64,000 nucleotides of DNA. It comes from Angiostrongylus vasorum. Taxonomy: Eukaryota > Nematoda > Chromadorea > Rhabditida > Metastrongylidae. The stretch lies in NCBI GenBank assembly GCA_018806985.1, contig JADANN010000101.1, positions 1-64,000 on the forward strand, in the 5' to 3' direction. This document shows positions 17,801-61,646 of this stretch, in pieces. A program made the position numbers and the translations under genes. Numbering within the stretch: the first letter of the stretch is position 1; each line of letters starts with the position of its first letter. The notes below the pieces were generated by a model. That model was not told the DNA's origin. It worked only from the letters and a program-made list of their open reading frames with translations, and did no database searches.

Positions 17801-17849
17801 TTTTTTGCTGCAATTAAAAGAATCAGCCTTGTGAAAGCCTTCCTTAGCT

Positions 17850-23848: not shown

Positions 23849-23849
23849 T

Positions 23850-25525
23850 CCCTCACATGAGGTTAGTCGCGAGGCTACGTGGCGCGTTCCTGGGTGGCGG
23901 ATAGGGGGTTAATCGCGGACCAAAAGCGATCTTTGCTTCCCTGAGACGTAGGTGGATCCAGGGGATGGACTCCATGTTTCCGTTGCACAGATATGGCACA
24001 CACTTTCTGTATTTGCTAGGCGTATTCATGCATGCGTATGTGGTGCGTTCTCGCTTATGCGGATTGTATTCTACGAGTCAATTCAGCCAAAAGCCTGGAA
24101 TCAAGTGACAGGGAAGAATATGGTAGGCAGTTAGGAGTCGCCTCCAACAAATGAGCTCCGTGTTCACTCTGGGAGAGTCTAACAAGCTACCCGTCAATAT
24201 ATGCAGCCCCACTACCAGAGCCCACCAAGCATTACGTGGGTATAAAAATGGTAAACACAGTAAAAGAAATGAGCCTCATTCCCTGACCCCGAAAGAGTCC
24301 CCAATTCGGCGCGTTGGTTAGGACGAGTAACGAGAGGCTGCTAAAACCTCAGGGCCAATGTAAGCTGCATGGATTGCAAAAGCTAAGGTGACGATCTGTA
24401 CCTACAATGCAAGCACACTTGCATCCGAGTCCTCGATAGAAGACTTGGTCATGCAAGCAAGAAGCATAAGGTACGATGTCATCGGCCTGGCAGAGAAGAC
24501 AAGACGCCACCTATTCAACGCCGTCTATGACACCGGAGAAGAACTGTTCCTTGAAACATGCGACAGTAGAGCTGTCGGCGGCGTCGGCGTTCTGGTCAAC
24601 ACGAGTTTGTCCATGAACATTTACTCATTCGAACAACTAATAACTAGGAATCGGACGTTTACGATTAAAAAGATGTGGATCAACACCGGCTGTGACAATC
24701 ATTGTCGTTTACGCGTCGACATCAAACTATGACGAAGAAGAGGTCAAATCGTTCCATAGGGACTTGGAGAAGTTGTACAGAGAAGACCACACATTCTTCA
24801 AGGTCATCATCGGAAGCTACCCAGTACGAGTATACCCAGCCCCCACGTTCAGAGCCCAGCAAGCTATACGTAAGTATAAAAAAGCTGAAAACAGCAAATG
24901 AAGCGGGCCTCATCCCCTGACCTCGAAAGAGCCTCCACTTCGGCAGCGTTGGGAAGGACGAGTACGGTGAGGCTGCTAAAATTTCAGGGCCAATGGAACT
25001 TGTTGTATAACGAACTAAAGTGACGAAGACCACACATTCTTCAAGGTCATCATTGGAGATTTTAACACCAAGATTGGACTAAGAAGAACGTCTAAAGAAT
25101 ATCGCATTGGGACCCCGGATTAGAATGGAACGAACAGGGTGAGCGGCTCTCTGAGTTTATCATAACGACCAAGGCCATCCAACTTAACTCGCAATTCCAA
25201 AAGCCACAAACTCAACGCTGGACGTGGGAGTATTCCAATGGAGAGTACCATAACGAAATAGACCACATCATAGTAAATAGAAGGTTTTGCCTAACCGATG
25301 TCTCTGTTGTCCCAAAATTCTACATCGGACCAGACCACCGCCTTCTTCGTGCAAGATTCTATTTCTCGCGGAAAGGAGAAAAAAACCGCTTAATTCGAAA
25401 CCGAAGTCCCAGAACCACCATAAACTGGGACTTATTCAACTCATTAGTCGTCTGTTGAAGATGCCGTTGTAGACGACATCGACGAGGAATACGATCGGCT
25501 CATTCAACATCTTCACTTTCAAGGG
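23850..25525 (+). mobile_element. RTE-1 5' leader plus endonuclease domain, internally rearranged
   Basis: The 5' leader (23850-24387) contains GAGGCTACGTGGCGCG and later GAGAGGCTGCTAAAACCTCAG. The apurinic-type endonuclease begins at 24388 with MTICTYNASTLASESSIEDL. It continues with YDVIGLAEKTRR (the catalytic Glu region), GVGVLVNTSLSMNIYSFEQL, YASTSNYDEEEVKSFHRDLE and IIGDFNTKIG. A second piece of 5' leader (about 24812-25024) is inserted after HTFFKVIIGS. The coding sequence then restarts with a repeat of the DHTFFKVIIG codons, giving a direct repeat of about 29 nt. The linker breaks at about 25525. Frameshifts at 24690 and beyond make it inactive. Confidence 0.8.
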
Positions 25526-26290
25526 AATCCGTGACTATCAAGGTTTCCATGACTGATTCTATCTCATTTGAGTCAAATGCCTTGTTTAAATCGATGAAAG
25601 TGGGACAGAGCGGTCATTTGTACTCTAGCGATACTTCAATGAGTCTTGTCAAAGTGTGGATGTGGTCCATCGTACCAAATCCCTTTCGAAATCCTGCTTG
25701 CTCATATGGCTGTCCTCCTTCGTCCAGTGTTCTGTCAATCCCTTTTAAGATGACTCGAGTGAAGAGTTTGTAGACGACATACAGCAAGCAGATTGGGCGA
25801 TAGTTGCCAATATCGTGGCGGTCACCGTTCTTGAACATTAGCACGGTCTTACTGGTCTTCCATTGAGTATTGACCTTACATTCAGACAGGTAACATGTGC
25901 AGAGATGAGCCAGTGCGTGTACGAGGACTGGCGGAAGGTTCTTCAGGTGTTCAGATCTTATCCCGTTCGGATCTGATGCTGTTCGATTTTTCACCGATGA
26001 AATGGCATATCGGATTTCGGAAGGGAGAACTGGTGGTACAACATATCCATCCTCTTTATTTCATATGACGGAAGGTGGACGAGGCTATCGAAGAGATCTG
26101 AGTAGTATTCGTGAAAGATTTTCTCCATTGCCTTTCTGCACGCTGCAACACCAAATTGGCGCGCAGAAATAGAGAGTCCATGCCGTGGATACACCTGCGT
26201 CTCAGAGAAACATACGGTCGCTTTTTGCTCTGCGCTTAGCTCCATATCAGCAACCAGGGGATCCGCCACGTAGCTTCACGAATAACCAGC
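25526..26290 (-). mobile_element. Inverted RTE-1 fragment: 5' leader fused to reverse transcriptase
   Basis: Minus-strand piece in which 5' leader sequence (MADPLVADMELSAEQKATVC; compare the leader at 51.9-52.0 kb) runs directly into the middle of the reverse transcriptase (KAMEKIFHEYYSDLFDSLVH). KNRTASDPNGIRSEHLKNLP, NYRPICLLYVVYKLFTRVIL and PYEQAGFRKGFGTMDHIHTL follow. The whole endonuclease and most of the linker are missing, so this is an internally deleted derivative. The same fusion occurs at 49442-50200. Confidence 0.82.
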
Positions 26291-27790
26291 TCGACATCCC
26301 TGATAAGAGGGACTTCCGTGGCTGTGGAGAATACCATAACCAAATAGACTACATTATAGTAAACTGAAGGTTTTGCCCAGGCGATGTCGCTGTTGTCCCA
26401 CAATTTGCACGGGATCAGATCACTGCCTTTTTAGTACAAGACTCCATTTCTCGCAGAAAGGAGGAAAAGCCGCTAAATTCAAAAATGAGGCCCCAAAAGC
26501 ACTACAAATTGGAACTTATTCAACTCATTTGTTGGCTGTTGGGGAAGATGCCGTTGTAGATAACATCGACATAGAAAACGATTGGCTCATCCAACATCTT
26601 CACAAGTCTGATGGACCACATCCACACGATAACAAGGCTCACGGAAGTATCGCAAGAGTAGAAAAAGACCGCTCTGTCTCACTTTCCTCGATTTACAGAA
26701 GGCCCTTGATCCAACTGAGATAGAAGCAGCTTCGTGAGCTGTACAAGAATTTCACAACCAAGATATCACCATTCTACAACGATATTTACGTTGACGTCAA
26801 AACAGGAGTTAGGCAAGGCGATACCATCTCGCCAAAATTATTTACCGCCATCCTCCAAAACGTCATGCGAGCATAGGAATGGGATAATATGGGAGTGAAA
26901 ATCGATGGTTGATAGTTATATCATCTTCGTTTTGCTGATGACATCGTCCTTATAACACTAAACATTAGCCAAGCGGAACGTATGCTTTTTCGACTTTGAT
27001 AGAGGCTGTGGAAAGTTTGGTCTTCAACTAAATCTCACAGAAAGAATGTTCATGAGGAACGGATTGGTTTCATATGCCCCATTCACGCTCAACGGAACCA
27101 GTATCTCCGCATGCTCCAGTTATGTCTATATAGATCGGGAAATCAATATGACGAACGAATTAGCTAACGAGCTGAGCAGAAGGAAACGAGCGGCTTGGCG
27201 AGCTTTCATGAGCATCGAGGATGTATTGAACAAAAACAACGAATTCCCGACTCCGTGCCCATCTTTTCGACCCAAGGGTACTTCCTGCCGTAAAGTATGC
27301 GCCAGAAACTTGGGTAAAAACGATGAAAGATCACCCAGCGTTATTGAAGTCGCAGTCAAAAGGACGCTGCTAGGAGTATCCCGTTTCACACAGCTAAGGG
27401 AAGGGGTCCGAAGCTCCAACCTACGTCAACGATCGAAAATCGAAGATGCCGTTCTGTATGCCAAACAGTCGAAGATAAGGTGGGCCGGACACGTAATGCG
27501 TGTGAACGACAACCGATGGCCAGGAGCCGTTAGTGACTGGATTCCTCGGGATGTTAAACGCACCGCAGGAAGACCACCGACCCTATGGCCAGTGTTCTTC
27601 ACGAAGAGCCTAGACGAAAGATATGATGCTCGACAAGTTCCTGGGGCGAGCGGAACCAACTTTTGTACTCTTGCACGCGACAGGGAAAAAGTGGAACATT
27701 TACTGCCGCCCGCTCGAATCACTAGACCATCAACGGGACTACAGGTGGTAGAGGTAATGGATTATATTTTGCAGGTCGACAAACCAAATG
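26291..27790 (+). mobile_element. RTE-1 fragment: linker joined to palm, thumb and C-terminal region
   Basis: The forward linker (WQYHNQIDYIIVN-type start, then GKAAKFKNEAPKALQIGTYS) breaks at about 26610 and resumes in the reverse-transcriptase palm. The stretch lost here is roughly the one lying inverted just upstream. A FADD-type box is at about 26928-26942 (frameshifted). The longest frame in the window, 27046-27846 (266 codons), is the C-terminal region, with RWAGHVMRVNDNRWPGAVSD, RTAGRPPTLWPVFF and ARDREKVEHLL. It is transposon, not host. Confidence 0.85.
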
Positions 27791-27859
27791 TATCCAAACC
27801 AGTGTATAAAGGGTTAAAGAAAACGTCTCGACATTTCCTCTCATAGCCTCTATGACAGC

Positions 27860-32640: not shown

Positions 32641-33607
32641 GTTTCCGTTGTACAGAAAATTGATCACATAAAAATACTATTCTTCACACCAAAAGTTTAA
32701 CAGAGAAGAATAGAAATCACCACGAGAAAACAGCCCTGTGTAATAAATACGGCGAGAAAACATTTTCTGTGAGACAGAGAATAGTTTCTATTTCCCCAAC
32801 TTACCACGGTTGCTGGTAAGTGGCGTTGTCTTGGTTCAACGTTGTTCTGTTTCTCAGCAGTTACTGGCTGGTGTGCGATGCCATATTTCAGCTGTTGGGA
32901 ATAACGGATACGGTTATCTTGAGATGGGTACTTCGTCGTAACGATTGTCTTCCATAAATATTTGCGTTGTCGATGAACGTGATAATATTTCAATCGTTTC
33001 CTTCACTAGTTGTGAGCTTCACTTGGTGAACCCTCAGTTTTTGATAAGGGTCGGGCCTGCTATTCCTGTGAGGAGATCAATTATTAGACTTTTTTTTGGG
33101 AAACTCCTTTAAAACCACAAATACGGACTGATTTTCCTAACGAATATCTGGGAACATGTTAACACGATTACTGTAATGTTCCACGGAGAGTCGACTTGAC
33201 CGCTATTTGACGACATTCGTAAAGAAGACCGAAAGTCCCCAAGCAGCATTCTAACGCGCACGCAATGTTCTAAACCTTCGTGGATGACGAATTCGAAACC
33301 AGTAGAAAAAAAAGTGCAGGCATCCACAAAGTGTACGGTGTTGTGTCGTGTCAAAAAAAACTGAAAAAATTATAATTAGACACAACACGAAATTTATCCA
33401 TTTGTTAAATAGGCCATTGCAATACTAGCGAAGAAAATCTATATGACTTCAGAGTTTCGAAGTAGATAAAAAAATAAAATTTACTGAACGAGTGAGGGAT
33501 TGTATATCGGATCAGTAAAAACCCGTGAATAACAATCGTGTCTACTGTTAGCATCTTAAGGCGATGACATTTAAGGACAAAAAATGCAAAACTGATAGCA
33601 ATTGTGA
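32641..33607. other. Unassigned DNA
   Basis: I see no supportable gene or repeat. Confidence 0.4.
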
Positions 33608-33760
33608 GCAAAGGTCATTTAGTCACTTAATTACACACACACAGCAAAGGTCATTTAGTCACTTAATTACACACACACACACAGCAAAGGTCATTTAGTC
33701 ACTTAATTACACACACACACACAGCAAAGGTCATTTAGTCACTTAATTACACACACACAC
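33608..33760. repeat. Minisatellite, four units of 36-40 bp
   Basis: Units start at 33608, 33644, 33684 and 33724, each beginning GCAAAGGTCATTTAGTCACT and ending in a CA run of variable length. The 20-base core is identical in all four units, and only the CA run differs, so the array is recent. It runs into the CA microsatellite. Confidence 0.95.
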
Positions 33761-33786
33761 CCACGCACACCCACACACACACACAA

Positions 33787-33820
<34 letters not shown>

Positions 33821-33830
33821 ACACACACAA
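33745..33830. repeat. CA/TG microsatellite
   Basis: About 85 bp of imperfect CA dinucleotides with a few interruptions (CCACG, AAGCAC, CATACA). Confidence 0.95.
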
Positions 33831-39845: not shown

Positions 39846-40797
39846 TAACATTGCTATTTTAATTTAGGCATGACACAATCACTTGAAATTATTGCGCTTG
39901 CTTTTCCTTAATTCGCACGTACTACTATTGTTCCTGCTGTCTTCATTATTTGATTTTCACATAGCGCTGTTGATGATGTCACTACCCATACCAGTTCCTT
40001 CATAGGTACAGTCTGTAAGACAAGCTCATAATTTGCTGTTTCAGTACCATTCTTAGCCCAAAAATTTTTTCCCTTTAACTGGCTCTCGGAAATTTTTTAG
40101 TACTTGATGATATAATTACTACTTGTGCATTTTTTTTGCCCATTTTTGACTAGATTCATCGAGGTAACTCAGCAATTTTTCCAATGAATTTTTGATTACT
40201 TTGCTTATTGCGCATAACACACGTCAAGGTTCGTCACTAAAACGCGAAGGAGAAGGCCGTGCACCTTCTATCAGCATATCCATTTCCTCTTGATACACTA
40301 TTTTACCCGGATTGTACGAACACCCACTGTATCTTGCTTTCACGACCGTCAATAGATCTTGTGTGCTTACCATTTTTGCTCAGGTATATAAATTAATTTT
40401 TTTGCAACAAAATACGAGCAAAATTTATATTGCAAGGTTCTCTAAATGCAGTAAAATATGTAGAGTCTCATCTGGAGAGTAATGTTTGTAGCACAATCTA
40501 TTAATAAGGCGCCACTGGTCGAGGTTCTCTCTTGCGTGTTGCTCATATTTCTAACGGCTCAGGTAAGCATACCGCTACAGCTTTTTACCAGTCACTCTGC
40601 AAAGTGTGGGAGTGATGATTATTAGACTCAAACATAAAGACGATATGGGATTTTATTTCATCCTTACATACGTGTTGCTTGGTGCGGCAGGATTTGACGT
40701 CTTTTCAAGATTTCTGGTGGTTATCACATCCTTCTTGGGCCAATGGGTGCATATTTAATTATTTTCTTAGCTGCTGTAATAACGATTGACACAACTT
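39846..40797. other. Unassigned A+T-rich DNA
   Basis: I see no supportable gene or repeat. Confidence 0.4.
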
Positions 40798-41175
40798 ACT
40801 TGGATACTTGGATACCTAGACGGCACATCCTTGCAAGGTTTGCGGGCTCCAGCAGCATCTCCATTTTTTCTGAGTTTTTGCTGATTTAACCATTGTTTCC
40901 TAGGAGTCCCGATGTCATCCTGGCCAAACTCTGCCCCATTTCGTCACCACCACAGGAATTCACTGGCCTTGTAAATAAGAGAAAGTTTTGCCACCATCTG
41001 GTTACTTTGGTACTGGGACGGTGGTGGATCCTGGTAATTGTTTACTCTTAGCTGGGCTTTCTGGTGGAAACGCCGGGCTCCTCGGCTTGGAAGACCCTGC
41101 CCTGAGAGTCCGCTGTACATCGCTGCGCGACATAGGAGCACCTCTCAGCCACGGTGAGGCGGTAAACCGCTAGGA
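40798..41175 (+). repeat. Dispersed repeat C, copy 4
   Basis: Forward copy with GGATACCTAGACGGCAC at the start and TTTGCCACCATCTGGTTACTTTGGTACTGGGACGG in the middle. It ends with the box ACGGTGAGGCGGTAAACCG. It shares the overall order with copies at 5.8 and 60.7 kb. Confidence 0.7.
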
Positions 41176-41800
41176 CTTATAGGCAAAATAAATGAATTAC
41201 TAAGCTTTAAGTGTGGATCACTTGTGCGAAATTTTTTTAAGTTGTCTAGCTGGTACAGCTATGAATTTCGTATGAGGTTTCAGTCGGCTTACCGCTCATG
41301 TAGGTGATTTTAAGTACTCAATAGTGATTGCCGTTTTACTGTTCATCCTGCCTGGGTTGATAAAGATTTTTCTACTCATAACTGCTCCTCAATTTTTGAA
41401 AAAATGGAAAGCAGAAGCCTAATATTAGTCTGTAACCTTTTCTAATCAAAATAGTCAACTGACAGCTGGAATTTTTTTCTTAATCTTTGCGGTTTTTGTC
41501 CAAATCCGTTTTAATACTTTTGATTTTGCTTTCAACACCATTTGCACTGTTGTGTATAGCTGATACAGGAAAGGTTCACTTGCAGAGGAAAACAGGTTAG
41601 AATGGCGTAACAGGTAATGAGAAGCGATAGCTTACATTAAGGGAAGAACAAAGAGGAGGAAATAGGAGGCTTTTTAGGCCTCACCTAAAAGCGGCCAATT
41701 AACCTTGAGGCTGGTTTGGCACAGGCATCCTGTGTCAATGTTGCATTTTGTTAGAACGATTGCCTGAATACCTTCTTTATAAGTGATAACTAGGTGCAAT
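41176..41800. other. Unassigned DNA
   Basis: I see no supportable feature. Confidence 0.4.
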
Positions 41801-42451
41801 TTAAAAGAGCACATAAGTGCTCTCGCTTAATTTCGAAACGCTAGCAAAAACCTTATCCTTAGATACTCTCTTTGCATGACAAATCGCAATAGAGGTTGTA
41901 TTAACGTATAAGATATCGGTATTTTCTGACTGTTCATAAAACGAGCGCAATAACGTTGCTAATGTGTTGCAAACTCTTAGGCTTTTACGCAGCAAAATTA
42001 GTGTACGAAGGTAACACTGGAAGCGAGCAGTACTGGGTGATGCAGGCAGAAATTCTTGAGATTTCCACACGGAGACTGCTGATACGGGAAGGATTATCAC
42101 CATGATTGCTAAATGAGCAACTTCTGGCACTCTTAGACTTTTTTCACTTGACAGTAGCTTATCTGCATTTTTTTCTATTTTTATCTTTTTATTTAATTGA
42201 TATGACTCGTGATCACGTCTACTGTGCAGATCCCAGCACTTCCCACATTCGATTGGTTTCCACGCAGCTATTGTCCATGGAGATCTTCCAACTTTTGCGT
42301 GGGGCTTCGGTTGCTGCTTGAGGGTTTTCGTTTCATCTTGAATGTTGTAGAACAATGGTCGAGCAATTCTTCCTGGAGTCCTGAGATAGCCGGGCAGAAG
42401 CGTTCCCAGTCGAATCGCAGAGATGGTTTTTTTCCCAGACAAGTCCGGCAC
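41801..42451 (-). other. 216-codon open frame containing sequence D and SINE-A debris
   Basis: This is the longest non-RTE frame in the window. Its first 11 residues are read through a SINE-A fragment. Residues about 25-53 (GRIARPLFYNIQDETKTLKQ, QPKPHAK) are sequence D, also found at 16.8, 38.6 and 54.4 kb. The remainder (EKSLRVPEVAHLAIMVIILP, SVWKSQEFLPASP) has no known domain. A donor-like GTTGGA follows QPKPHAK, so the frame may be one exon plus chance read-through. I would not annotate it as a full-length gene. Confidence 0.35.
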
Positions 42452-42495
42452 CAGTTCTCCGATGCGGAAGGATGAGAGGCTTGCTTGGTTCGTTG
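42430..42495 (-). mobile_element. SINE-A fragment
   Basis: Reverse fragment with CCCAGACAAGTCCGGCACCAG, TCCGATGCGGAAGGATGAGAGGC and GCTTGGTTCG, corresponding to the SINE-A body. It is joined directly to sequence D. Confidence 0.6.
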
Positions 42496-42619
42496 GATTT
42501 TTTCTCTATATTTCTACAAATTTGTTGACGAAATAAAACAGCTTCGTTATATCTTCCACAGGTAGCCCTATTTCTCGTCCTTTTGTATTTTTTTGACTCT
42601 TTCTATTCTCTGTTAACCT

Positions 42620-42990
42620 AGAGTTAGTGTTTTGAATACAACGTTTTCTTCATTTATTTCTGTTGTTTACCCACGAATTCCTTACGTTTGTCTTTATTCT
42701 GTCCCTAATAAAGGAAACTTTTTATACATACAGTCTCCTTTCTTAAAGCAGTTATATACCGTGTTTTTTGCACTTATTACCAAATTCTTCAGTTATCTCT
42801 GCAATTATAATACACCGACCTCCAAGCAGAATTTTTCGAGATCATCTATAGCTTTGGTCTTATGATTACGTCTCTTTTGATAGTTTGGAGACTGTTTTCT
42901 TCCATAAATATATTGTTTTGCACTGATTTTGAATATCTGACTGATTTTTTCTTTCACTAACTGTTTTGAGCATAAGCTCCCTCAGATCCT
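42620..42990 (+). repeat. Dispersed repeat E, copy 1
   Basis: A+T-rich segment that aligns with 61940-62290. Shared text includes AAATTCTTCAGTTATCTCTGC against AAATTCTGCAGTTATCC, then CAATTATAATAC(A/C)C, a CAGAA segment, and TTTGATAG followed by TCTT and CATAAATA. It is noncoding in both copies. Confidence 0.55.
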
Positions 42991-43045
42991 CACCGCACAG
43001 AGTTCGCTTAATTTTTTTTTCCAGTTACTTACTACAACGTTTTAA

Positions 43046-43432
43046 CTATTTACCCAACAAGTAACCCTTCCTGCGTTGGTTATAAATAGAAAGGAAGTAA
43101 AACCACCATAGGTAAATGAAGGGTACTACAAAAAGTGAGCTTTTTTTGAAGCCTATGTTAAAAGTGTCTATTTCAACATCAAAAACCAGTATAAGCAACA
43201 ATTCTCGATAATGCAAACTTGCATAAGAAAGGGCGAAGGAATTGATAGGAAATGTTGGGTACAAAATTCTCCCTCTGTCATTTTCTTCATCCATTCTAAA
43301 TTCATTTGGGAAGACCTGTGTTCCTATCAAACATGCGATGAAGAAAATCTTACCAGACTTTTGACCTGATTTTTGATTCAACAGTTGATTTTGTTTTCCA
43401 GCGTCCAGGTAAACTCTTCCTTGGTTAGCCAT
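43046..43432 (-). other. 128-codon open frame, unknown
   Basis: Begins MANQGRVYLDAGKQNQLLNQ and ends with a hydrophobic segment (SSLFVVPFIYLWWFYFLSIY) before a basic tail. I do not recognise it. The clear start, single membrane-type helix and lack of repeats make a host exon or small gene possible, but nothing outside the frame supports it. Confidence 0.25.
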
Positions 43433-44189
43433 ATTTTAAAACATTAGCGTTTTTTTAAGTCTTCAGTGTTTTACAAACGCACTTTAGCCTGTATATGTAA
43501 AAGAGTAGAAGCAGACAGTGCAAAAAATTTAGGCATGAGATTCAGTTATCACACTTTGTCACTTAGCCTGGACAGATGAAAGTAATAATAAAACGCCTCA
43601 CACCATGGTAAGGCAAAGTTTGTTAGGTAGTTTTAGCCCCTTTTTTATCGGCTACTTGGATGATACTGATGGCAGCAGTGATAAATAAGTGGTAAAGAAA
43701 TAGTCGTAGTTTTAAAGAATGTTAGTGACTATAAGAAAGCTTCGACGCTAATTTATAAAATAAGCCCCAATCTAGACCTAAATAAAAAAGATGGGTTTTC
43801 ATTTCATAAAAAACTCATTACCAAATTTTTCCTGGTCAACAAAACAGTTTCTGAGTCAACAGATAATGTCCAAAGAAGGTTGGATAAGCTTGGCACAAAG
43901 GAAGTAAGTGTGCAGAAGCAAGGACAAAAAAAATATTAGTTAAATTACCTGAAACAGAAGACAACAAACAGATAACATCTCTGCTTAGCAAAACTGCTAA
44001 GCTAGCTTTCCGTTTGGTGAACAATAACATAGCTAAGCTGCGGGATATAAATCACGAAACTACCGTAATACTTATATGTAGAGTATAATCAACAAACTTA
44101 CCGAAGCACAGTTATAAACACTTCATGGGTCGTCTTTCGTGGCCAAGATGGTCGTGCGCAAAGTCCTTTATTGGTATGTGATTCTTCCT

Positions 44190-46614: not shown

Positions 46615-48560
46615 CCTGCATCACCTATAGTCCCATTGATCGTCGAGTGACTCCGAGCAGGCTCCAGCAAATCTTCTATTTTTTCCCTGTCGCGTGAAGA
46701 GGAGCTCAGTGGTTTCTGTTCGCTCTAGGAACTCGTTAAGCATCATATCTTTTTTTCTAGGCTTTTCGTAAGGAACCCCTGACCATCGAGTCGACGGTCT
46801 TCTTACAGTGCGTTTGACATCCTGAGGGAATCTAGTCACTAACGGTTGTTGTCCTTCGGTTATCATTCATAAACACTGCGTGTCCGAGCCATCTTACCGT
46901 CGACAGTTCCGCGCATAGAACGGCATCTTTGATTTTTTGATCGTTGACGCAGGTCGGAGATTGGGATCCCTTCTCTTACTTGCGGGGGTACTCCTAGCAT
47001 CGTCCTTTCGACTGCGCGTTCAATTACGCTGAGTGATTTTCCATCATGTTTACGCAACGACCTGGTTTCTGACGCATACGTTAAAACAGAAGAAACCTTC
47101 GAGTCGAAAAAGGTGTGCAGGGAGTCGGGTGTTTTTTTGTTATCCTCACTACTTCTTCGATACATCACAAAGCTCCTCAAGCCGCTCGTTTCCTTCTGCT
47201 CAACTCTGGAGCTAAGTCGTTCATCATATTGATTTCCCGATCAAGATAGACGTAAGTGGAGCATTCGGAGAAATTCGTTCCATTGAGCATGAATGGGGCA
47301 TACGAAACCAATCCGTCCCTCGTAAACATCGTTTTTGTGATATTTAGTCGAAGACGAATCTTCTCACAGGCGGACCAGCATTCGTTCCGTTTGGCTAATT
47401 TTTGATGTTATACGGACGATGTCATCAGCAAAGCGAAGATGGTGTAATTGCCGACTATCGATTTTCACTTCCATGTTGTCCAATTCCAATGTTCGCATGC
47501 GTTCTCGAGGGCGGCGGTAAATAATTTTGACGAGATGGTATCGCCTTGCCTAACCCCTCTTCTGACGCCGATGTCAATGTCGTCGTAGAATGGTGATATC
47601 TTAGTTGTGAAATTTTTTGTTACAACTCACGAAGAATCTTTATGTACTGACTATGGAAGCACTGGCTTTCAAGTGCTTCCATGACTGCTTCTATCTCCAT
47701 TGAGGCAAAGGCCTTCTTTAAATGGATGAAAGTGAGACCTTGTTCACAAGACTGCCCTTCGTCCACTGTTCTGTCAATCCTGCTTAGGATGACTGGAGTG
47801 GAAAGTTTGTAGACGATAGACAGCGAGCAGATTGGGCGATAGTTGCCGATATCGTAGAGCTCATCCTTCTTAAACATTGGCAAGGTCATGCTGGTCATCC
47901 ATTGAATAGGAACTTTGCATTCAGAAAAGTGTGAAGAGCCGAGCCAGTGTGTTTACGAGGATTGGCGGAAGGTTCTTCACGTGCTTAGATCTTATCCCAA
48001 CCGGACCTGCTACAGTTCATTTTTTTTCACCGACGAAATGGCATGTCGGATTTCGGAAGGGAGCACCAGTAGTACAACATATCCGTCCTCCTCTACTTGA
48101 TATGACGGAAGTTGGACGTAGCTATCGAAGAGATCTGAGTAGCATTCGTGAGTGATTTTCTCCATTGCCTTTCTGGACGCTGTAACTGTTCCGTCTGGGC
48201 GTCGGAGTGCAATCATCTTGGTCTTGTAATTGGCGAAGCCCCGGTGGGCTTTGCGAATGCTTTTCCCAGTCTCTCCGGCTTCGACCACTACTGCTGCTCT
48301 TCTCTCCTTAAGATCTTCTTTTATTGACTGCCTGCATTGTTTTGCAAGTTCGGACGTTAGTTCGCGGTTACCTGCAGCTTGTGCGACTCCACTCTGGCGT
48401 ATCAGCTCGAGACTTTCTTGGGACAGACGTCCCTTGGGGACTTTCGAACTCTCAGCTTTCATTGCACTAATGTCAAAATGTTTAGTGAACCGATCGTATT
48501 CTTCGTCGATGTTATCTACAACGGCATCTTCCCAACAGCCAACAAATGAGTTGAATAAGT
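46615..48560 (-). mobile_element. RTE-1 fragment (linker to 3' end)
   Basis: Minus-strand reverse transcriptase. The linker-to-fingers frame 48462-48010 is 150 codons (VPKGRLSQESLELIRQSGVA, ALRRPDGTVTASRKAMEKIT, CYSDLFDSYVQLPSYQVEED). NYRPICSLSIVYKLSTPVIL is in 47898-47620. The FADD-type box is at 47421-47440. The C-terminal region with RPSTRWSGVPYEKP is at 46866-46621. It is decayed by several frameshifts and continuous with the rearranged segment upstream. Confidence 0.84.
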
Positions 48561-49441
48561 TCCAATTTATAGTGGTTTTGGGGCCTCATTTTTTGAATTT
48601 AGCGGCTTTTCCTCCTTTATGCGAGAAATGGAATCTTGCACGAAGGAGGCAGTGGTCTGATGCTTCGTAGAATTTTTGGGACAACAGCGACATCGGTTAG
48701 CTAAAACCTTCTATTTACTATGATGTGGTCTGTTTCGCTATGGTACTCTCCATTGGAATACTCCCACGTCCAGCGTTGAGTTTGTGGCTTTTGGAATTGC
48801 GAGTTAAGTTGGATGGCCTTGGTCGTCATCATAAACTCAGAGAGCCGCTCACCCTGTTCGTTCCATTCTAATCCGGGGTCCCAATGCGATATTCTTTAGA
48901 CGTTCTTCTTAGTCCAATCTTGGTGTTAAAATCTCCAATGACGACCTTGAAGAATGTGTGGTCTTCGTCACTTTAGTTCGTTATACAACAAGTTCCATTG
49001 GCCCTGAAATTTTAGCAGCCTCACCGTACTCGTCCTTCCCAACGCTGCCGAATTGGAGGCTCTTTCGAGGTCAGGGGATGAGGCCCGTTTCATTTGCTGT
49101 TTTCAGCTTTTTATACTTACGTATAGCTTGCTGGGCTCTGAACGTGAGGGGCTGGGTATACTCGTACTGGGTAGCTTCCGATGATGACCTTGAAGAATGT
49201 GTGGTCTTCTCTGTACAACTTCTCCAAGTCCCTATGGAACGATTTGACCTCGTGGTTTTGGGGCCTCATTTTTTGAATTTAGCGGCTTTTCCTCCTTTCT
49301 GCGAGAAATGGAGTCTTCTACTAAAAAAGGCAGTGATCTGATCCCGTGTAAAATTGTGAGACAACAGCGACATCGGTTAGGCAAAACCTTCAGTTTACTA
49401 TAATGTGGTCTATTTCGTTATGGTACTCTCCACAGCCACGG
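48505..49441 (-). mobile_element. Rearranged RTE-1 segment: linker, inserted 5' leader, endonuclease
   Basis: On the minus strand the order is a second linker piece (49441-49250), a junction at CCACGAGGTCAAATCG, an endonuclease piece (EEVKSFHRDLE-type), a 5' leader insert (about 49175-48960), then DHTFFKVVIGDFNTKIG-type sequence and the linker. The part from 49247 to about 48505 is nearly identical to 24730-25500, including the leader insertion and the duplicated codons around it. Confidence 0.82.
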
Positions 49442-50855
49442 AGGTCCCTCATATCAGGGATATCGAGCTGGTTATTCGTGAAGCTACGTGGCGGATCCCC
49501 CTGGTTGCTGATATGGAGCTAAGCGCAGAGCAAAAGCGACCGTATGTTTCTCTGAGACGCAGGTGTATCCACGGCATGGACTCTCTATTTCTGCGCGCCG
49601 ATTTGGTGTTGCAGCGTGCAGAAAGGCAATGGAGAAAATCTTTCACGAATACTACTCAGATCTCTTCGATAGCCTCGTCCACCTTCCGTCATATGAAATA
49701 AAAGAGGATGGATATGTTGTACCACCAGTTCTCCCTTCCGAAATCCGATATGCCATTTCATCGGTGAAAAATCGAACAGCACCAGATCCGAACGGGATAA
49801 GATCTGAACACCTGAAGAACCTTCCGCCAGTCCTCGTAAACGCACTGGCTCAGCTCTGCACATGTTACCTGTCTGAATGCAAGGTCCTTATTCAATGGAA
49901 GACCAGTAAGACCGCTCTAATGTTCAAGAAGGGTGAGTTCCACGATGTCGGCAACTATCGCCCAATCTGCTTGCTGTCTGTCGTCCACAAACTCTTCACT
50001 CGACTCATCCTAAACGGGATTGACAGAACACTGGACGAAGGAGGACAGCCATATGAGCAAGCAGGATTTCGAAAGGGATTTAGTACGATGGACCACATCC
50101 ACACTTTGACAAGACTCACTGAAGTATCGCTAGAGTACAAATGACCGCTCTGTCTCACTTTTCATCGATTTAAACAAGGCATTTGACTCAAATGAGATAG
50201 AATCAGTCATGGAAGCCTTGATAGTCACGAATTCCCTTCTCAGTGCATAAAGATTCTTGGTGAGCTTTACAAAAAATTTCACAACCAACATATCACCATT
50301 CTGCAACGATATTAACATTGACGTCAAAAGAGGAGTTAGGCAAGGCGATACCATCTCGCCGAAATTATTTACTGCCACGCCGCCAGAACGTCATTCGAAC
50401 ATTGGAATGGGATAACACGGGAGTGAAAATCGATGGTCGGCATTTACACCACGTTCGCTTTGCTGATGACATCGTCCTTATAACACTAAACATTAGCCAA
50501 GCTGAACGAATGCTTGCGACTTTTTTTAAAGCCTGTGAAAAAATTGGCCTTCGACTAATTCTTACAAAAAACGACTTTCACGGGAACGAACTGGTTTCCT
50601 ATGCCCCATTCACGCTCAATGGAACGAATATCTCCGAATGATCCAGTTAGGTCTATCTAGGTCGGGAAATCTACATGACGAACGACTTTGCTTCAATGTT
50701 GAGCAGATGGAAGCGAGCGGCTTGGAGAACTTTCAAGAGCACCAAGGATGTAGTGAAGACAACAAAGAACACCCGACTCCGTGGCCATCTTTTTTCGACT
50801 CGACGGTTTTTTCTGTCTTAACGTATGAGTCAGAAACCTGGCGGCTGCGTCAGTG
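49442..50855 (+). mobile_element. RTE-1 internally deleted element: 5' leader fused to reverse transcriptase
   Basis: 5' leader (EATWRIPLVADMELSAEQKR) runs into the reverse transcriptase at KAMEKIFHEYYSDLFDSLVH. A 193-codon frame (49563-50144) covers the fingers, with SVKNRTAPDPNGIRSEHLKN, KKGEFHDVGNYRPICLLSVV and EQAGFRKGFSTMDHIHTLTR. The palm with HVRFADDIVLITLNISQAER (FADD at about 50458-50469) follows in another frame. The C-terminal region is cut off at about 50855, where an inverted endonuclease fragment begins. Its fusion junction is the same as at 25526-26290. Confidence 0.84.
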
Positions 50856-50884
50856 GACGATCAATAGGACAACAGGTGATTATC

Positions 50885-52090
50885 CCACTGGGGAGACTCC
50901 CACGTCTAGCCTTGAAGGTAGTGCATTCGGAATTGCGAGTTACCATGGACGGTCTTGGTCGTCATCATAAACTCAGAGAGCTACTCTGCCTGTTCGTTCT
51001 ATTCTAACCCGTGGGTCTCAATCTGACGTTCTTCAGATGTTCTTCTTGGTCCAATCTTGGCGTTTAAATCTCCAGTGATGACCTTGAAGAATGTGTGGTC
51101 TTCTCTATACAACTTCTCCAAGTCCGTATAGAACGCTTTGACCTCTTCTTCGTCATAGTTTACTGTCGGCGCGTAAACGACGAAGTTTGCCAATGCCGGT
51201 ACTGAACCAAATCTTTTTAATCGTAAACGTCCGATTGGTGTTGTAAGCTGTTCGAATGAATCGATGTTCATGAACAAACTCGTTTTGGTGAGAACGCCGA
51301 CGCCGCCAATTCCCTCTACTGTCGCATGTTCCGAGGAACAGTTCTTCTCCGGTCTCATTGACCGTGTTGAATGGGTGGCCTCGTCTTGTCTCGGCCAGGC
51401 CGTTGACGTCGTACCTTATCTTTCTCGTTTGCATGATCGAGTTGTCTACCGAGGACGCGGATATAAGTGCGCGTGCATTGTAGGCACAAATCGTCATCTT
51501 AGTTCTTCGTGATCCAGGATGCCTCTGTTGGCTCTGAGATTTTAGCAGCCTCTCCGTACTCGTCCTACCCAACGCTGCTGAATCGGCAGCTCTTCAGAGG
51601 TCAGGGGGAATGAGGCCCGCTTACTTTACTGTGTTTAACTTTTTTGATGCCTACTTAAAGCACCTTGACCCCTTAAGGCGAGGGCTGGGTATACTCACGG
51701 GTAGCTTGCCAGGCTCTCCCAGTGTGGACATGGAGCTTTATTTATTGGAGGCGAATCCTACCGCCTCCTATGTACTTCCCTCTCACTTAATTGCAGGCTT
51801 TTATCCGAATTGACTCGTAGAATACAATCCGCATGAACTTGAACGCACCCACACACGCGTGCATAAATACGCCACGTAAATACAGAGAGTATGTGCCAAA
51901 TCGGAGCAGCAGAAACAGGGAATCCATCCCTTGGATCCACCTGCGTCTCAAGGAAATATACGGTTGCTTTTGGCCCGCAACTAATCCCCCTATCCGCCAC
52001 CTGGGGACGCGCCACGTAGCCTCGTGACTAACGTGCTCGAGATCCCTCGTATGCGGAGCCTCCGTGGTAATCATTCTGGCGTAGCAGTCT
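50885..52090 (-). mobile_element. RTE-1 5' leader and endonuclease domain
   Basis: Best endonuclease copy. The minus frame 51572-51153 starts with TKMTICAYNARALISASSVD and includes IRYDVNGLAETRRGHPFNTV and GEELFLGTCDSR. The frame 51358-50999 continues with GGVGVLTKTSLFMNIDSFEQ, NFVVYAPTVNYDEEEVKAFY and HTFFKVITGDLNAKIGPRRT. The 5' leader lies at about 52090-51600. Downstream it ends in the linker near 50885. A single frameshift separates the two endonuclease frames, so this copy is younger than most. Confidence 0.84.
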
Positions 52091-54592: not shown

Positions 54593-55914
54593 TAGAACTC
54601 GAATTGTTTTGAAATCGCCAGTGCGACCAACACGTCAGCTGATGATTTCATTGAAGAAATAAATGTGTTTTTGATAGTGATATCGACGAGAAGATAAGAG
54701 TGAAAAAGACTTTTAGGTCCTTCCCAATTTCACACATCTGCATTTCACGGTAGGTCCGACAGTCATCATGCTAACACGTCTTTTAAATAGAGCTACACGG
54801 TATTACAATAATCAGCTTTGCTAATTTGTTTGCTGTCAGATGGATAGAAATAAAAATAAATAGAGAGGCTCCGACGATAGTGGTAATATCCAGAATACAA
54901 TACAGGAGCAGATTTCATTATTTTTCACAACATAAGATGCTGCATTCCAACGTTACCCCTTTCTATTATCGTCACGGAGTGGTTATTTTCAGATCTGATA
55001 TTCAATGGCAGGACCCATCAATTGGATGTCGAATTCCAAAGACTCAAGGGTGTAAGTAACAGGTTCAGCGATAGTAGTCATATTTGTCACATGTTCTTTT
55101 AAGTCGAAATAACGAGTTTTGCACTCACACAGTTGAAGCTTTAGAGAACCGTTGTAGGCATGCAGAACTAAGTGGTGAACGGAGAGAACCTACATTCAGA
55201 ACTATACCACTTCCCACAGAGATGGACCACAACTCGATTCCCGTGCGCAATCGGTGGAAAAACGTGGGAAAGGTACTGCTTCTAACACAAGAATCTTGAC
55301 GAAATTCGCCATAATACATATGTTCAGAATCAACAGGTTCGGCGCATTTTCGTTCCCGCTGGACTTTCGATGTTTGCCGAGACGATGCGTGCGTGTTTGG
55401 AGGAGTATCACGGAAGGGTGTTTTCTTCGTTCTCCGAAGTTGTTAACAACAGTATGCCATTCTGGGATAAGGTACGAACCAACAGTTTTTCGAAATTCTG
55501 CATTGTCTTTGCGAAATCAGTATACAGCTTTGTCCTTCGCTAAAATTACAAGGAAAACATTGTAGCTTTATCAAATAGAAATCGATGTGGTAACGAAAGT
55601 ACTCCAGTAACCTATCTCTACTATCCATGACTTATCGTGTAATTTTGCGTGTACTTGAAAAAATGACTTTTACTAAATTCATCTTATGATTGGCATATAC
55701 CAACAGTTACTAATTGAATAAATATCATAATTTTGCTCATCCACGTACAACTACAAATTGGAAGGGGAACGCAATGGATACTGTCGAACACAACGACCGC
55801 GGTGGAAATCAAATTTGCTAGTAAAATCTTGCCGTCAATTCAAAGCTGCACTAAAATCCAAAACATTTCAAATTTGCCCAAATTTATGTGTAGTTCGTGC
55901 GGCAATTTAATCGT
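54593..55914. other. Unassigned DNA
   Basis: Overlapping frames on both strands at 54826-55565 have no recognised domain. I see no supportable gene. Confidence 0.3.
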
Positions 55915-56060
55915 CTCCAGACTGAGAGACAGGCGAAGGACTCGCATAGTGTGGTGGTGAACGCGTTAGCCTCCGGAAAGGTTAATAGCTCATTCGTTAC
56001 CCACTGCAAACACTTGCAGTCCTGTGTTTTGCAAATATCTCAGCATCATTCTGCTTGAAT
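55915..56060 (+). mobile_element. SINE-B copy, 5'-truncated
   Basis: Forward copy starting at CAGACTGAGAGACAGGCG. It has GTGGTGGTGAACGCGTTAGC (A-box), GCTCATTCGTTACCCACTGC, and GTTTTGCAAATATCTCAGCATCATT at the end. Confidence 0.75.
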
Positions 56061-56737
56061 TTAATCACCAGATCATTTCAAAGATACAGAGATTTAGACA
56101 TTGCCGATAGTGATATCAACGAATAAGGTGGGAAATATGTCTCTAAATTTCATTATTTTTTTAACAAATAAACCAAAAAAACCAAATATTAATTCAGCTT
56201 AAATTTCGCAACCTATTCACTTTTTTCAAACATAGCTTACCAAACAATTCACTAAAATTTGTCTTTAAATAGAATTTGTTTCTCGTACATTAATCGACTA
56301 TCAAAATATCTAGACACTTGTGCAAGTGCTGGGCTGTTAATGTTGACCTATTGGACCGATCAACCTTTCGTCCATATTGGTCAATATCAGATCCGTCCAT
56401 ATCATATAACCCTCTCTTGATAGGTCTCCACCAACTGCCAAAATGCCCGCCATTTGATCGTCGTGAGTGCTAGAATTGTCCAATCCTTCCAGTTTCGTTG
56501 GCATGCAGAGGTCTATTGCTGGTGCTGAGCTTTTGGGTGAAAAGGTATTTTTGCTGTTTCGTCAAAACATCCCGTTAGTCGGCTAACCTTGCTTGAAATC
56601 TAGTTAGTCTTTTTCAGTTTTATAGCGCTTCCTTTGCGAAGTATTTCCATCTTTAGCGACTTCGATCTATCAAGGAATCCATCACCTCGTTATCGGTCGC
56701 AATTAGAACTTCTGAAACATTTCGTGCTCTTGTTGAG
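56061..56737. other. Weak coding-like trace on the minus strand
   Basis: One minus frame at about 56345-56550 reads AIDLCMPTKLEGLDNSSTHD and QMAGILAVGGDLSREGYMIW before a stop. It has the look of decayed coding sequence but matches nothing I know. Confidence 0.25.
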
Positions 56738-57731: not shown

Positions 57732-57897
57732 AGTTCTACTAACTTACAATTTTAACCTTTTTGCTACTGCCTACTATTTTTGATGGCAGGGTATACTGCG
57801 AAATATAACTTCAACGAAGCTGAGATATTTGCAAAACTCTGGACTCTGGTCCAGAGTTTTGCAAATATCTCAGCTTCGTTGAAGTTCTACTAACTTA
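57732..57897 (-). mobile_element. SINE-B insertion with 5' inversion and 15-bp target-site duplication
   Basis: Flanked by perfect direct repeats AGTTCTACTAACTTA at 57732-57746 and 57883-57897. On the minus strand the insert is an inverted piece followed by the forward 3' end of SINE-B. Together they give a perfect 38-bp inverted repeat (57807-57844 and 57849-57886) with a 4-nt loop, TCTG. The 3' part carries GTATACCCTGCCATC and GTAGGCAGTAGC of the SINE-B tail. The structure fits twin-primed retroposition. Confidence 0.9.
57807..57886. repeat. Perfect 38-bp hairpin
   Basis: Each arm reads from GTCCAGAGTTTTGCAAATAT to CTTCGTTGAAGTT or the complement. With a 4-base loop it could extrude as a cruciform. 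Confidence 0.95.
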
Positions 57898-58740: not shown

Positions 58741-59594
58741 ACTTGTCTTAACAACTACTGCTGTGACTTACACTCATTCATATTGTCCTCATCACTTTTC
58801 GAAAAACAGTGGTTAACAACGGCGTGGTAGGGGAGCATATTTTCATTTATTTGCTTCGTTAGTGGAATTTAGGACGTTCCTCATTTCGATGATCGACAGT
58901 ATAGGGATAAAGGTCGTAGAAAAAAAAACTCAACTCGCACTCTAAGTATTCAAAACCACTGTGAGCGTAAGCCACAAGATTCTAGTGGGTCAAATGGCTG
59001 GCGTAGGGGGATTGATTGTTGATATGTGGAGTGAAGTATAGTGAAATTGAAGAACTTGACTTTACTATAACTTTACACGTTAGGTACAAGGAAGCTGTTT
59101 CCAGTATTTAAATCCACTGAATGAACTTGAAACTGCTGAAGAACTTAGGGCATCATTTCCTTTTTTATTTCAGGAGATACGACTGGAACGACTGAGGACG
59201 CTTCTTTGGTGGTTACTCGCTGTATACCAAATTTTAAAGAAACGTAGAACTCCTACTTATCAAGACAAATGTCATTTTGTAGTGTTTGAAATAAAGTTAG
59301 ATTGATCATTCTTTTTGACTAGAGTTGAAAGGACTTTCCACCTTTTTTACTGCATCATTTTTTTTTCTAAATTTTGTAAATTGTTTCCGATGTCCACACA
59401 ACGCCAGCCTAATATTTTTTACTCTCATGTTACATCAGTAGTAAAATTATGGTATGCATACTACCAATGTCATTCGCACAATAATGGCAAGGAAGATGAT
59501 ACCAAGTAGCAATTGCATACTTGGAGCTTCACACATGAAATCATTTCCCGATGAATCAGTTCCAGAGAATGCGAAACAAAGGAGCACATGTTAT
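58741..59594. other. Unassigned DNA
   Basis: I see no supportable gene. It is T-rich around 59330-59420. Confidence 0.4.
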
Positions 59595-59940
59595 TATGTG
59601 CGAAACAACCACAATGATGCTGAGATATTTGCAAAACTCCACACCGCAAGTGGTCGGCGGTGTTGAACGAACGCGCTTTCACACCTTCCGCAGGCTAACG
59701 CGTTCACCACCACACTGTGTGGCTTCTTCTAGAATGAAGAACTAGGTGAGACACAGGCGAAACGTAGGACACGAATGATGTGGTGGAGAACTCGTTAGCC
59801 GCCGGAAAGTGTAATAGCGCGTTCGTCCTCAGCGCAGACACTTGCGGTCCGCAGTTTTGCAAATATCTCAGCGTCATTGTGGTTGTCCTTCGCATTATAC
59901 CCCGCCGTGAAAAATTGTGATAGACAGTAAATAAAAACAT
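59595..59940. mobile_element. Head-to-head SINE-B pair
   Basis: A reverse SINE-B half (59595-59725) faces a forward half (59742-59940). The forward half has GTGAGACACAGGCGAAACG, TGTGGTGGAGAACTCGTTAGCC, CAAATATCTCAGCGTCATTGTGG and a complete tail (CGTGAAAAATTGTGATAGACAGTAAATAAAAA). The arms are imperfect, so this palindrome is older than the one at 57.8 kb. It lies directly upstream of the dUTPase-like sequence. Confidence 0.75.
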
Positions 59941-59963
59941 TAATCCTATTCTAGGAACTATCC

Positions 59964-59997
59964 AAAAATGGATTGATAATGGAATTGTGTTAATCCA
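59964..59997. other. Small hairpin upstream of the dUTPase-like sequence
   Basis: AAAAATGGATTGATAATGG is followed closely by TTAATCCATTAAATA. ATGGATT and AATCCAT can pair. It could be a relic of a bacterial terminator, but it is short and may be chance. Confidence 0.3.
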
Positions 59998-60041
59998 TTA
60001 AATAAGAGCGTGAGTTAAGTATAAATTAACTAAGGTAAGAG

Positions 60042-60561
60042 ATGAAGAATACTTTTGTGAATAAAGTTCTCTTATTAAAACAGCTTAGTATAAATCCAGT
60101 TTTAGTACATGCAGTAGAGAATAAAATTACTTGGTTCGGTGGTTTTAAATCCACTAGCAAGATTACTTGTTCCAACTGTAATTCTTATTCCAAGTGAAAT
60201 TGTTCCAACTGCATTTGTAATACCAAATGGTTTTGAGGCGCAAGTCCGTCCACATACTGGCCTTGCCTCAAGACGTGGGGTTACTGCCTTAAATTCTCTA
60301 GATAGTTTAGATTCTGATTATCGAGGTGAAGTTAAAGTTTGTCTAATTGACTTAGGTAACCAACCATATGAAATGAAAAGGGGAGATACGACTGCACAAT
60401 TAATCATTGTTTCTACATTTTAATTAGTTTAGGATAGGATTGCGCAAATTTTTATGGTTTCTGCATTTTGTGAAGTTTGGGATAACACAGAGAAATTTTG
60501 TACGGAGGAAACTGATCGGAATGCAGATGGTTTTGGCTCAAGTGGTAGGCAGTTTATATAA
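60042..60561 (+). pseudogene. dut: Decayed bacterial-type dUTP diphosphatase (dUTPase) gene
   Basis: The enzyme hydrolyses dUTP to dUMP. In frame from 60139 (a GTG, not a real start) the protein shows ARLLVPT, then NGFEAQVRPHTGLASRRGVT (motif II region) and LDSDYRGEVKVCLIDLG (motif III, DYRG intact). KRGDTTAQLII (motif IV) follows, then a stop. In the same frame a second motif IV (DRIAQIFMVSAF) follows, then TEETDRNADGFGSSGRQF (motif V, glycine-rich, at 60526-60549) and a stop at 60559-60561. FEAQVRP and DSDYRGEVKV are bacterial in style. Two internal in-frame tandem duplications (33 and 48 bp), two stops and an upstream frameshift (an ATG at 60042 behind AAGG leads into MKNTFVNKVLLLKQ and AVENKIT) disable it. 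Motif I (AGxDL) was not found. The A+T-rich base composition differs from its neighbours. Confidence 0.8.
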
Positions 60562-60827
60562 AGACTATCGATCAGTTAATCTTTTACTTTCGAAGCTTCT
60601 TGATGTTTTGTAAATAACTTTAGCATATTAGTGATTCATCAAAGAGGCTACCTACTTTGATACTTGGACGGCCTGTACTAACTCGTTGTGCAGAACCCAG
60701 CAAAATTTCCACTTTTCGGGTCTCATTGGCCTAGTCATCGTGGTCCTCTGGAGCTCCGAAGTCAGCCTAGCCGCCCCCCAGGTCGCCATCATCACAGGCA
60801 GTCACCGTCGCTGTGGATACGAGGGAG

Positions 60828-60975
60828 AGAAAGGCGAAACGAAGGACCCGCATGATGTGGTGGTTAACGCGTTAGCCGCCGGAAAGTGTAATAGCGCGTC
60901 CGTTCCCCCACCATGGGCACCTGCGGTCCAGAGTTTTGCAAATATCTCAGCTTCGTTGAAGTTATAAGAGGGGAG
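60828..60975 (+). mobile_element. SINE-B nested inside repeat C
   Basis: 5'-truncated forward SINE-B starting at AGGCGAAACGAAGGACCCG, with GTGGTGGTTAACGCGTTAGCC and ending CTCAGCTTCGTTGAAGTTAT. Flanking CGAGGGAGAG and AGAGGGGAGAG look like an imperfect target-site duplication. Its 3' end matches the hairpin arm at 57.8 kb exactly, so both belong to one subfamily. Confidence 0.78.
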
Positions 60976-61087
60976 AGTTGTTACCCTGCGACTAGTTTGA
61001 TACCAGGACGGTAGTGGATCCAGGATCTGGTTTAATCTCAGCTGGACTTTCTGATGGTAATGCCGGACTCCTCATCTTGAGAGATCC

Positions 61088-61163
61088 TGCCTCCCTCCCG
61101 CTCCCCTCAAACCCTTACCTCAACCCCCCTCCCCCCTGCCCTCACACCCCACCCCCTCCCTTT
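61088..61163 (+). repeat. C-rich tract (G-rich on the minus strand)
   Basis: About 75 bp with seven or more runs of three to six C, including ACCCCCCTCCCCCCTGCCC and ACCCCACCCCCTCCC. It replaces the normal middle of repeat C. The minus strand could form a G-quadruplex. Confidence 0.85.
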
Positions 61164-61230: not shown

Positions 61231-61646
61231 GGATAGCTCTTATAATACTTACGTTTCTGGATGTTATATAGCTAACCTGAGGAAGGTTCACTTAAATGCT
61301 GAAGAAGAGAGCTGATGGTCGAATTGGTCACAAGTCGAAAGTCCGACAGCACTTTTTTAATCCCTATCTTTGATGGCGAATCAGAACCTTTTAGCTGGAT
61401 CCAGGTCATGTAGATGTAGTAGCAAAAAGAATATTTTATATCCAACCTAAATTACCGAGAATTATTGCCTGTCCAGACTTTTTCTATCCAAACAAACACA
61501 TTTCAATACTACATTCGAAAAGTCCTCCTTTGCAACATCCTTCCACCATCTACGATACTTTAACTTCACTTTTATTTAGCTCTCCAATTATGCTCACATT
61601 TCCTCTTTTGTATCCTGGTCTTTGTCTTTTATAAAACCTTTTGTAA
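61231..61646. other. Unassigned DNA
   Basis: I see no supportable feature. Confidence 0.4.

Follow-up and report, generated by a model that had tools for sequence, protein, structure and literature searches.

Decayed Wolbachia gene fragments, including a dUTPase gene, in the genome assembly of an Angiostrongylus-like lungworm

A 64-kb stretch of lungworm DNA (the window; the first 64 kb of contig C101) contains a broken bacterial dUTPase gene (dut), which we read, with a probability of about 95%, as part of a dead nuclear Wolbachia transfer (NUWT) in an Angiostrongylus-like lungworm, the donor being, on dut alone, perhaps nearest to wCfeJ and supergroup C. Under the proposed scenario, an ancestor of the worm, or an animal living with it, would have been infected by a Wolbachia of this kind, and pieces of the Wolbachia chromosome would have entered the germline genome of the lungworm ancestor. 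The pieces would then have drifted and been broken up by point changes, tandem duplications and the loss of internal stretches, and the worm's own repeats would have inserted into them at least twice. Nothing suggests that any of them became a functional gene of the worm. A heritable infection that was subsequently lost is suggested by the presence of these Wolbachia gene pieces in a worm group without known infection today.

Wolbachia-derived fragments in the window

At a threshold of E 1, the comparison of the whole window with the wCfeJ genome (G429; 1.2 Mb, part of it masked) yielded 16 matches. Ten of these, covering ~3.1 kb, have E values below 1e-3, and six of the ten fall within 39999-44072 (Table 1). 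The reversed window produced 12 matches at E up to 1, none below E 0.012. The window matches at 41976-42085 (E 0.012) and 61264-61401 (E 0.086), as well as four weaker ones, are at chance level and were left out. The identity of the fossil pieces to wCfeJ ranges from 61.5 to 80.3%, gaps excluded. A control of 53 AT-rich contigs, bacterial and viral (910,192 bases in total), included many that had been chosen for carrying dut; the best 14 matches to it all lay in dut, and none within 39-44 kb.

Table 1. Features of the two Wolbachia-derived regions (coordinates in the window; wCfeJ coordinates refer to genome G429)
Positions	Strand	Feature	Evidence
39999-40791	.	Wolbachia fossil: nitroreductase gene (- strand) and first part of divergent bioY (+ strand)	blastn 74% over 795 columns, wCfeJ 754585-753805, E 1e-146; Pfam PF00881, PF02632
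40792-41178	.	Dispersed nematode element (387 bp) that separates the two bioY pieces	
41179-41411	+	bioY fossil, second part	blastn 74%, wCfeJ 753811-753583, E 2e-37
41716-42167	-	IS982-family transposase fossil	blastn 58% (61.5% ungapped), E 1e-11; tblastn E 5e-15; NF033520
43293-43424	.	Probable small Wolbachia piece	blastn 68%, E 6e-7; no wCfeJ ORF of at least 100 aa there
43500-43635	.	Probable piece of a Wolbachia repeat	blastn 65.5%, E 2e-4
43694-44072	+	secD fossil with frame-breaking indels	blastn 78%, wCfeJ 814392-814774, E 5e-80; TIGR01129
59299-59573	+	Wolbachia fossil: start of engB (YihA/YsxC GTPase) and spacer upstream	59308-59573: blastn 67.9% (77.1% ungapped), wCfeJ 196044-195743, E 1e-33; TIGR03598
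59592-59899	.	Nematode foldback (MITE-like) repeat nested in the engB fossil	61-nt arms, 84% complementary
59910-60046	+	engB 3' end fossil, reaching the argB start codon	blastn 72%, wCfeJ 195395-195260, E 6e-16
60048-60129	+	argB (acetylglutamate kinase) fragment	blastn 77%, wCfeJ 195084-195003, E 1.6e-9; tblastn 63% over 27 aa; gene name from TIGR00761
60134-60650	+	dut fossil, codon ~42 to the end (near 60552), and ~98 nt of downstream Wolbachia spacer	blastn 80.3% ungapped, wCfeJ 194131-193683, E 3e-63
60158-60223	+	Tandem duplication of 33 nt within dut	9 of 33 sites differ; absent from aligned Wolbachia dUTPases
60385-60480	+	Tandem duplication of 48 nt within dut	14 of 48 sites differ; both in-frame stops in the first copy
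60653-60963	.	Nematode repeats at the right edge: part of a ~380-bp dispersed element, then half a foldback element	

On the + strand, the dut fossil carries, in the right order, the motifs that we take to be dUTPase motifs II-V, as a first-pass annotation of this DNA had pointed out. Two ORFs cover it, 60118-60423 (101 aa; PF00692, E 6.7e-7; NCBIfam PRK00601, dUTP diphosphatase, E 2.8e-21) and 60433-60561 (42 aa; PF00692, E 0.047; PRK00601, E 7.1e-5), both PRK00601 scores and the Pfam score of the second ORF being below the curated cut-offs. The ORFs share one frame and are separated by two stops, TAA and TAG, which lie where the first copy of the 48-nt duplication ends; the internal stops and duplications of the earlier account are thus both present. 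The start, motif I and approximately the first 41 codons are missing, and motif III is altered (LDSLDSDY vs PGTIDSDY). A working trimeric dUTPase (PF00692) has five motifs in an open frame; because motif I is gone, motif III is altered and two stops interrupt the frame, the fossil is predicted not to encode such an enzyme.

With E values of 6e-53 against the wCfeJ protein (tblastn) and 1e-65 at the nucleotide level (blastn), and nothing below E 0.012 from the reversed window, chance is excluded as the source of the match between dut and Wolbachia. Among the best 120 of the 364 matches found in a search of 5.8 billion proteins (E 1e-5), Wolbachia heads the list (110 to ~96 bits, 55-65% identity). 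Proteins with no organism given and four entries under the name Callosobruchus chinensis reach the same score level among the matches listed, and the first match named to another bacterium, Ignavibacteriales, scores 81 bits vs 110. Among the 59 matches to PDB sequences (E up to 1), the best chain scored 72.5 bits, a shrimp dUTPase 29.7 and Drosophila CG4584 25.9. A scan of genome contigs had no Wolbachia-titled locus among the at least 80 loci listed, and the best identity in a scan of viral contigs was 60% among the 80 loci listed.

The homology extends upstream of dut. The fossils of engB, argB and dut, together with both spacers, show collinear nucleotide homology with Wolbachia, in the same order as in wCfeJ, wDi and the genome that we take to be wOo (G423). 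The counterpart in wCfeJ (196044-193683) spans ~2.4 kb, and the worm segment lacks three stretches of it, of ~350, 175 and 870 nt. At the start of engB, wDi and G432 match from position 59299 and wOo from 59301. The region 60042-60561, which the first-pass annotation had assigned in full to a dUTPase, therefore divides in two: 60134-60552 is indeed dut, and the first 92 bases (60042-60133) belong to engB and argB, position 60042 being the argB start, so that the presumed N-terminal peptide of the dUTPase comes from argB. Wolbachia DNA flanks the foldback repeat on both sides, to 59299 on the left and to 60650 on the right. This repeat is the element previously labelled SINE-B, a name that does not hold, whereas the other flank, labelled repeat C, does consist of nematode repeats (60653-60963). 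Within the window, the foldback repeat has a near full-length copy at 17449-17740 and partial copies at 12848, 55923 and 60819. When 59900-60830 was used as a DNA query against the worm genome, its first 740 bases matched only themselves and the other 40 matches were to the dispersed repeat at the right edge, the single-copy status of 59900-60640 being based on the 40 of 2012 first-look candidates that were scored.

A second Wolbachia cluster, at 39999-44072, escaped the first reading, which accordingly underestimated the extent of the bacterial DNA. The two clusters may descend from a single integration. The bioY pieces that flank the nested nematode element overlap by 7 bases on the wCfeJ genome, resembling a target duplication, and the two worm copies of these 7 bases mismatch. 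Nearly full-length copies of the nested element are present at 5816-6180 and 2231-1849, and part of it is found at 40 or more other genomic sites. The wCfeJ stretch that matches 43500-43635 matches itself and at least seven other places in wCfeJ. The lowest G+C content of the window, 0.369, was recorded in the 2-kb bin 42001-44000.

The worm genome searched comprises 279,923,027 bases in 468 contigs. Three 20-kb Wolbachia queries, a biased sample in that each was chosen for holding a known window fossil, returned these known fossils and three short matches elsewhere; old copies may escape such a search. No intact Wolbachia stretch was found in the worm genome with these three queries. The matches at C274:1270078 (ileS) and at C26:434578 and C274:409070 (sucC) were set aside as candidates for further fossils and taken for native genes, given that animals presumably have nuclear homologues of both.

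Placement of the donor

In an order-wide genome search with the Brugia Wolbachia dUTPase, 290 of 343 genomes matched at E 1e-30 or better. Forty-one genomes (G418-G458) were taken as Wolbachia, partly by identity, and 38 of these matched, with 63-88% identity. Beyond the first 20 residues, ten of these 38 dut genes encode proteins identical to entries listed in the protein search above, including those of wCfeJ, wDi (host Dirofilaria immitis), wLbra (Litomosoides brasiliensis) and wStri (Laodelphax).

In a maximum likelihood tree of 404 dut columns, the fossil is the sister of wCfeJ (82.7/95), next to wDi, wOo and G432. The AU test retained placements with wCfeJ (p 0.58, 0.74) and with supergroup C (p 0.18, 0.48), and rejected the clade containing wStri, presumably supergroup B (0.002), a second large clade that we label A-like (0.001), and a position outside the core set of 35 Wolbachia (9e-5). 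Among seven other placements, five were rejected (0.011-0.047), and those with wLbra (0.059) and G428 (0.077) were kept. Under the SH test, which is weaker than AU, the A-like clade (0.065) and each of the seven other placements (0.075-0.197) remained acceptable. The position of the fossil was resolved neither by a nine-taxon concatenated tree (819 columns) nor by the dUTPase protein tree, where the fossil falls among Wolbachia, beside wBm and wCfeJ, with weak support (72.9/78, 82.7/61).

The order engB-argB-dut was found in eight of the 38 loci (wCfeJ, wDi, wOo, G432, G437, wLbra, G444 and G422) and argB-dut in nine, the ninth being L236. A flank of ~5 kb was available in 15 genomes, five of which have engB-argB-dut; the flanks of the others, ~1.5 kb or less, are too short to hold all of engB. 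Since the order also occurs in other loci, it is compatible with wCfeJ and supergroup C without singling them out. Genome G440 has a DNA match to the engB block, yet tblastn detected no engB there. The rejection of a place outside the core Wolbachia, together with the gene order engB-argB-dut, identifies the source as Wolbachia rather than another bacterium, which narrows the Rickettsiales donor guessed in the first-pass annotation. Judged from dut alone, the donor was perhaps nearest to wCfeJ and supergroup C. wCfeJ is said to subtend supergroup C (PMC7750005) and has been named supergroup V (PMC10557451).

The worm could also have acquired this DNA second-hand, from a NUWT of another animal, such as an arthropod or a filarial worm, rather than through an infection of its own lineage. 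Transfers of this type usually occur within an infected germline, and the pieces derive from several Wolbachia loci, both of which make a second-hand origin improbable. In its favor, retrotransposon transfer between nematodes and a mammal has been published (PMC6542046), and, according to PMC12693587, where the NUWTs of Dictyocaulus viviparus are called striking, no live Wolbachia infection has been found in any strongyle.

Decay, embedding in worm DNA and the native dUTPase

The dut fossil differs at 16 of the 138 sites that are invariant in 35 living Wolbachia dut genes (4/50, 11/79 and 1/9 by codon position). When each of the 35 living genes was left out in turn, the median was 0 and the maximum 9 of 147. 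Given the stops, the indels, the lost start and these changes at conserved sites, the sequence is decayed and is not under selection as a gene. Compared with wCfeJ, the fossil differs at 17/114, 17/115 and 33/115 sites by codon position, and at 27/97 in the downstream spacer; the corresponding counts for wDi vs wCfeJ are 16/114, 9/115 and 21/115, with 15/94 in the spacer. These counts indicate that some of the divergence can date from earlier Wolbachia evolution and that some is unconstrained change on the branch of the fossil. The fraction 16/138 corresponds to ~0.126 substitutions per site (Jukes-Cantor). If we assume a nematode rate near 2-3e-9 per generation and 1-4 generations a year, the age would be ~10-60 million years, a rough figure only.

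The frame of dut has, two stops aside, been kept for ~420 nt, with no frameshift from codon ~42 to the end. This survival exceeds the expectation for long neutral decay and counts against the NUWT reading. It would be accounted for if a bacterial dut had been taken up, worked in the worm for a time, and then died, which would also fit the in-frame position of both duplications and the excess of third-position differences from wCfeJ. However, wDi vs wCfeJ is likewise rich in third-position differences, so this excess can be older history, and second positions are not depleted among the Wolbachia-invariant sites that changed (11/79). Moreover, the start, motif I and ~41 codons are lost, and the neighboring pieces that are not dut have decayed as well. 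A once-working gene is, on balance, very unlikely, even more so than second-hand acquisition.

The Wolbachia-derived DNA is flanked and interrupted by dispersed nematode repeats, and thus lies, according to the assembly, within the nuclear DNA of the host. Chimeric contigs, in which DNA of a live Wolbachia in the sample would be joined to worm sequence, can arise from short reads or from low-quality joins. Such a chimera is very unlikely here, slightly more so than a gene that once worked: indels and stops mark the pieces as decayed; Wolbachia-derived sequence is interrupted by two worm repeats, one of them with the overlap that resembles a target duplication; and, apart from the native gene, the fossil was the only dut-like locus returned by the dUTPase family search described below. 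Decay in place had been put forward earlier as an argument against contamination, and the two nested repeats reinforce it.

The dUTPase family search of the whole genome returned two places, C375:1287088-1287393 (113 bits) and the window fossil (28.9 bits), so that the sole dut-like place besides the native gene is broken. The native dUTPase (L161:1102-1812, on contig C375), which served as a control and reads as intron-split from its ORFs, is 90% identical to that of A. cantonensis as listed and 89% identical, over 94%, to that of Ancylostoma ceylanicum. In the dUTPase protein tree, it groups with A. cantonensis (85.6/97), and the animal clade stands apart (100/100). Nematode dUTPases, the relatives whose proximity would have spoken for a worm origin, are therefore not the closest to the fossil. 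dUTPase is common in nematodes, but a duplicate of the native gene is ruled out by the animal-type gene on C375, the protein tree, and the bacterial neighbors of the fossil, which stand in Wolbachia order.

Comparison with other worms and repeats of the host

The first-pass annotation mentioned Wolbachia fossils reported from strongylid nematodes, and they are known from one other strongylid, the strongyloidean lungworm Dictyocaulus viviparus, with close to 1 Mb of Wolbachia-like sequence in fragments of clade F type and a mean identity of 84.5% to filarial Wolbachia (Koutsovoulos et al. 2014, PMC4046930). As in the account given there, the sequences described here are Wolbachia fragments that have decayed and carry inactivating mutations, and they lie in the nuclear genome of a strongylid lungworm in which no living symbiont is known. 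They differ in amounting to ~3.1 kb in one window, in their identity of 61.5-80.3%, in a donor nearest, on dut, to wCfeJ and supergroup C, and in belonging to another worm lineage. The terms 'dUTP', 'dut' and 'deoxyuridine' were not found in the main text of PMC4046930, which mentions two unverified Wolbachia-like ESTs from Ancylostoma caninum. Filarial NUWTs, too, are nuclear Wolbachia fragments that record past infections, but many of their filarial hosts carry living Wolbachia now, a drug target there (PMC12693587), whereas the host here is a strongylid.

In Angiostrongylus itself, Wolbachia was not found by PCR, lateral transfer was deemed conceivable, and disputed PCR reports from A. cantonensis were judged most likely to be contamination, as stated in Foster et al. 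2008 (PMC2565651). That dispute concerns the same or a neighboring worm genus. Unlike the PCR products, the fragments in the window are genomic sequence, decayed and with worm repeats inside. No report of Wolbachia DNA in an Angiostrongylus genome was found in the literature, as covered by titles and abstract openings, with most subscription journals outside the scope. As far as that literature shows, this would be the second strongylid lineage with Wolbachia fossils, and perhaps a new donor lineage.

We tentatively propose, at somewhat less than even odds, that Angiostrongylus-type lungworms (Metastrongylidae) had a heritable Wolbachia of their own, close to wCfeJ and supergroup C and distinct from the F-type of Dictyocaulus, that was lost tens of millions of years ago. 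If so, strongylids would have acquired Wolbachia on more than one occasion, and all Angiostrongylus species would be expected to share the insertions found at this locus. In D. viviparus, the infection may have been a brief 'hit-and-run'; with a second fossil-bearing lungworm, whose donor was possibly a different one, the idea that strongylids gained and lost Wolbachia repeatedly can be tested. The locus can be sought in each Angiostrongylus genome, and it is relevant to the long-standing disagreement about PCR evidence for Wolbachia in that genus.

The host itself is, by its own sequences, assigned to an Angiostrongylus-like strongylid. Among the best 120 of 277 matches to a reverse transcriptase ORF at 49512-50144, A. 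cantonensis comes closest (65-83% in the A. cantonensis rows), and Ancylostoma, Nippostrongylus, Necator, Heligmosomoides and A. costaricensis are represented as well. Several degraded copies resembling non-LTR retrotransposons, with endonuclease-like and reverse-transcriptase-like frames, occupy 18321-27846 and 46863-51593; some are 95-99% alike and inverted. Full or partial window copies of the foldback (MITE-like) family lie at 12848-13021, 17159-17755, 55914-56086, 57804-57889, 59592-59899 and 60819-60963. The ~380-bp dispersed worm element is represented at 5816-6180, 1849-2231, 17823-18088, 40792-41178, 60653-60828 and 60964-61091, and its stretch at 60.65-60.83 kb recurs in at least 40 further places in the genome. 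At 33607-33829, a 40-bp unit is repeated in tandem, and the array ends in an (AC)n run.
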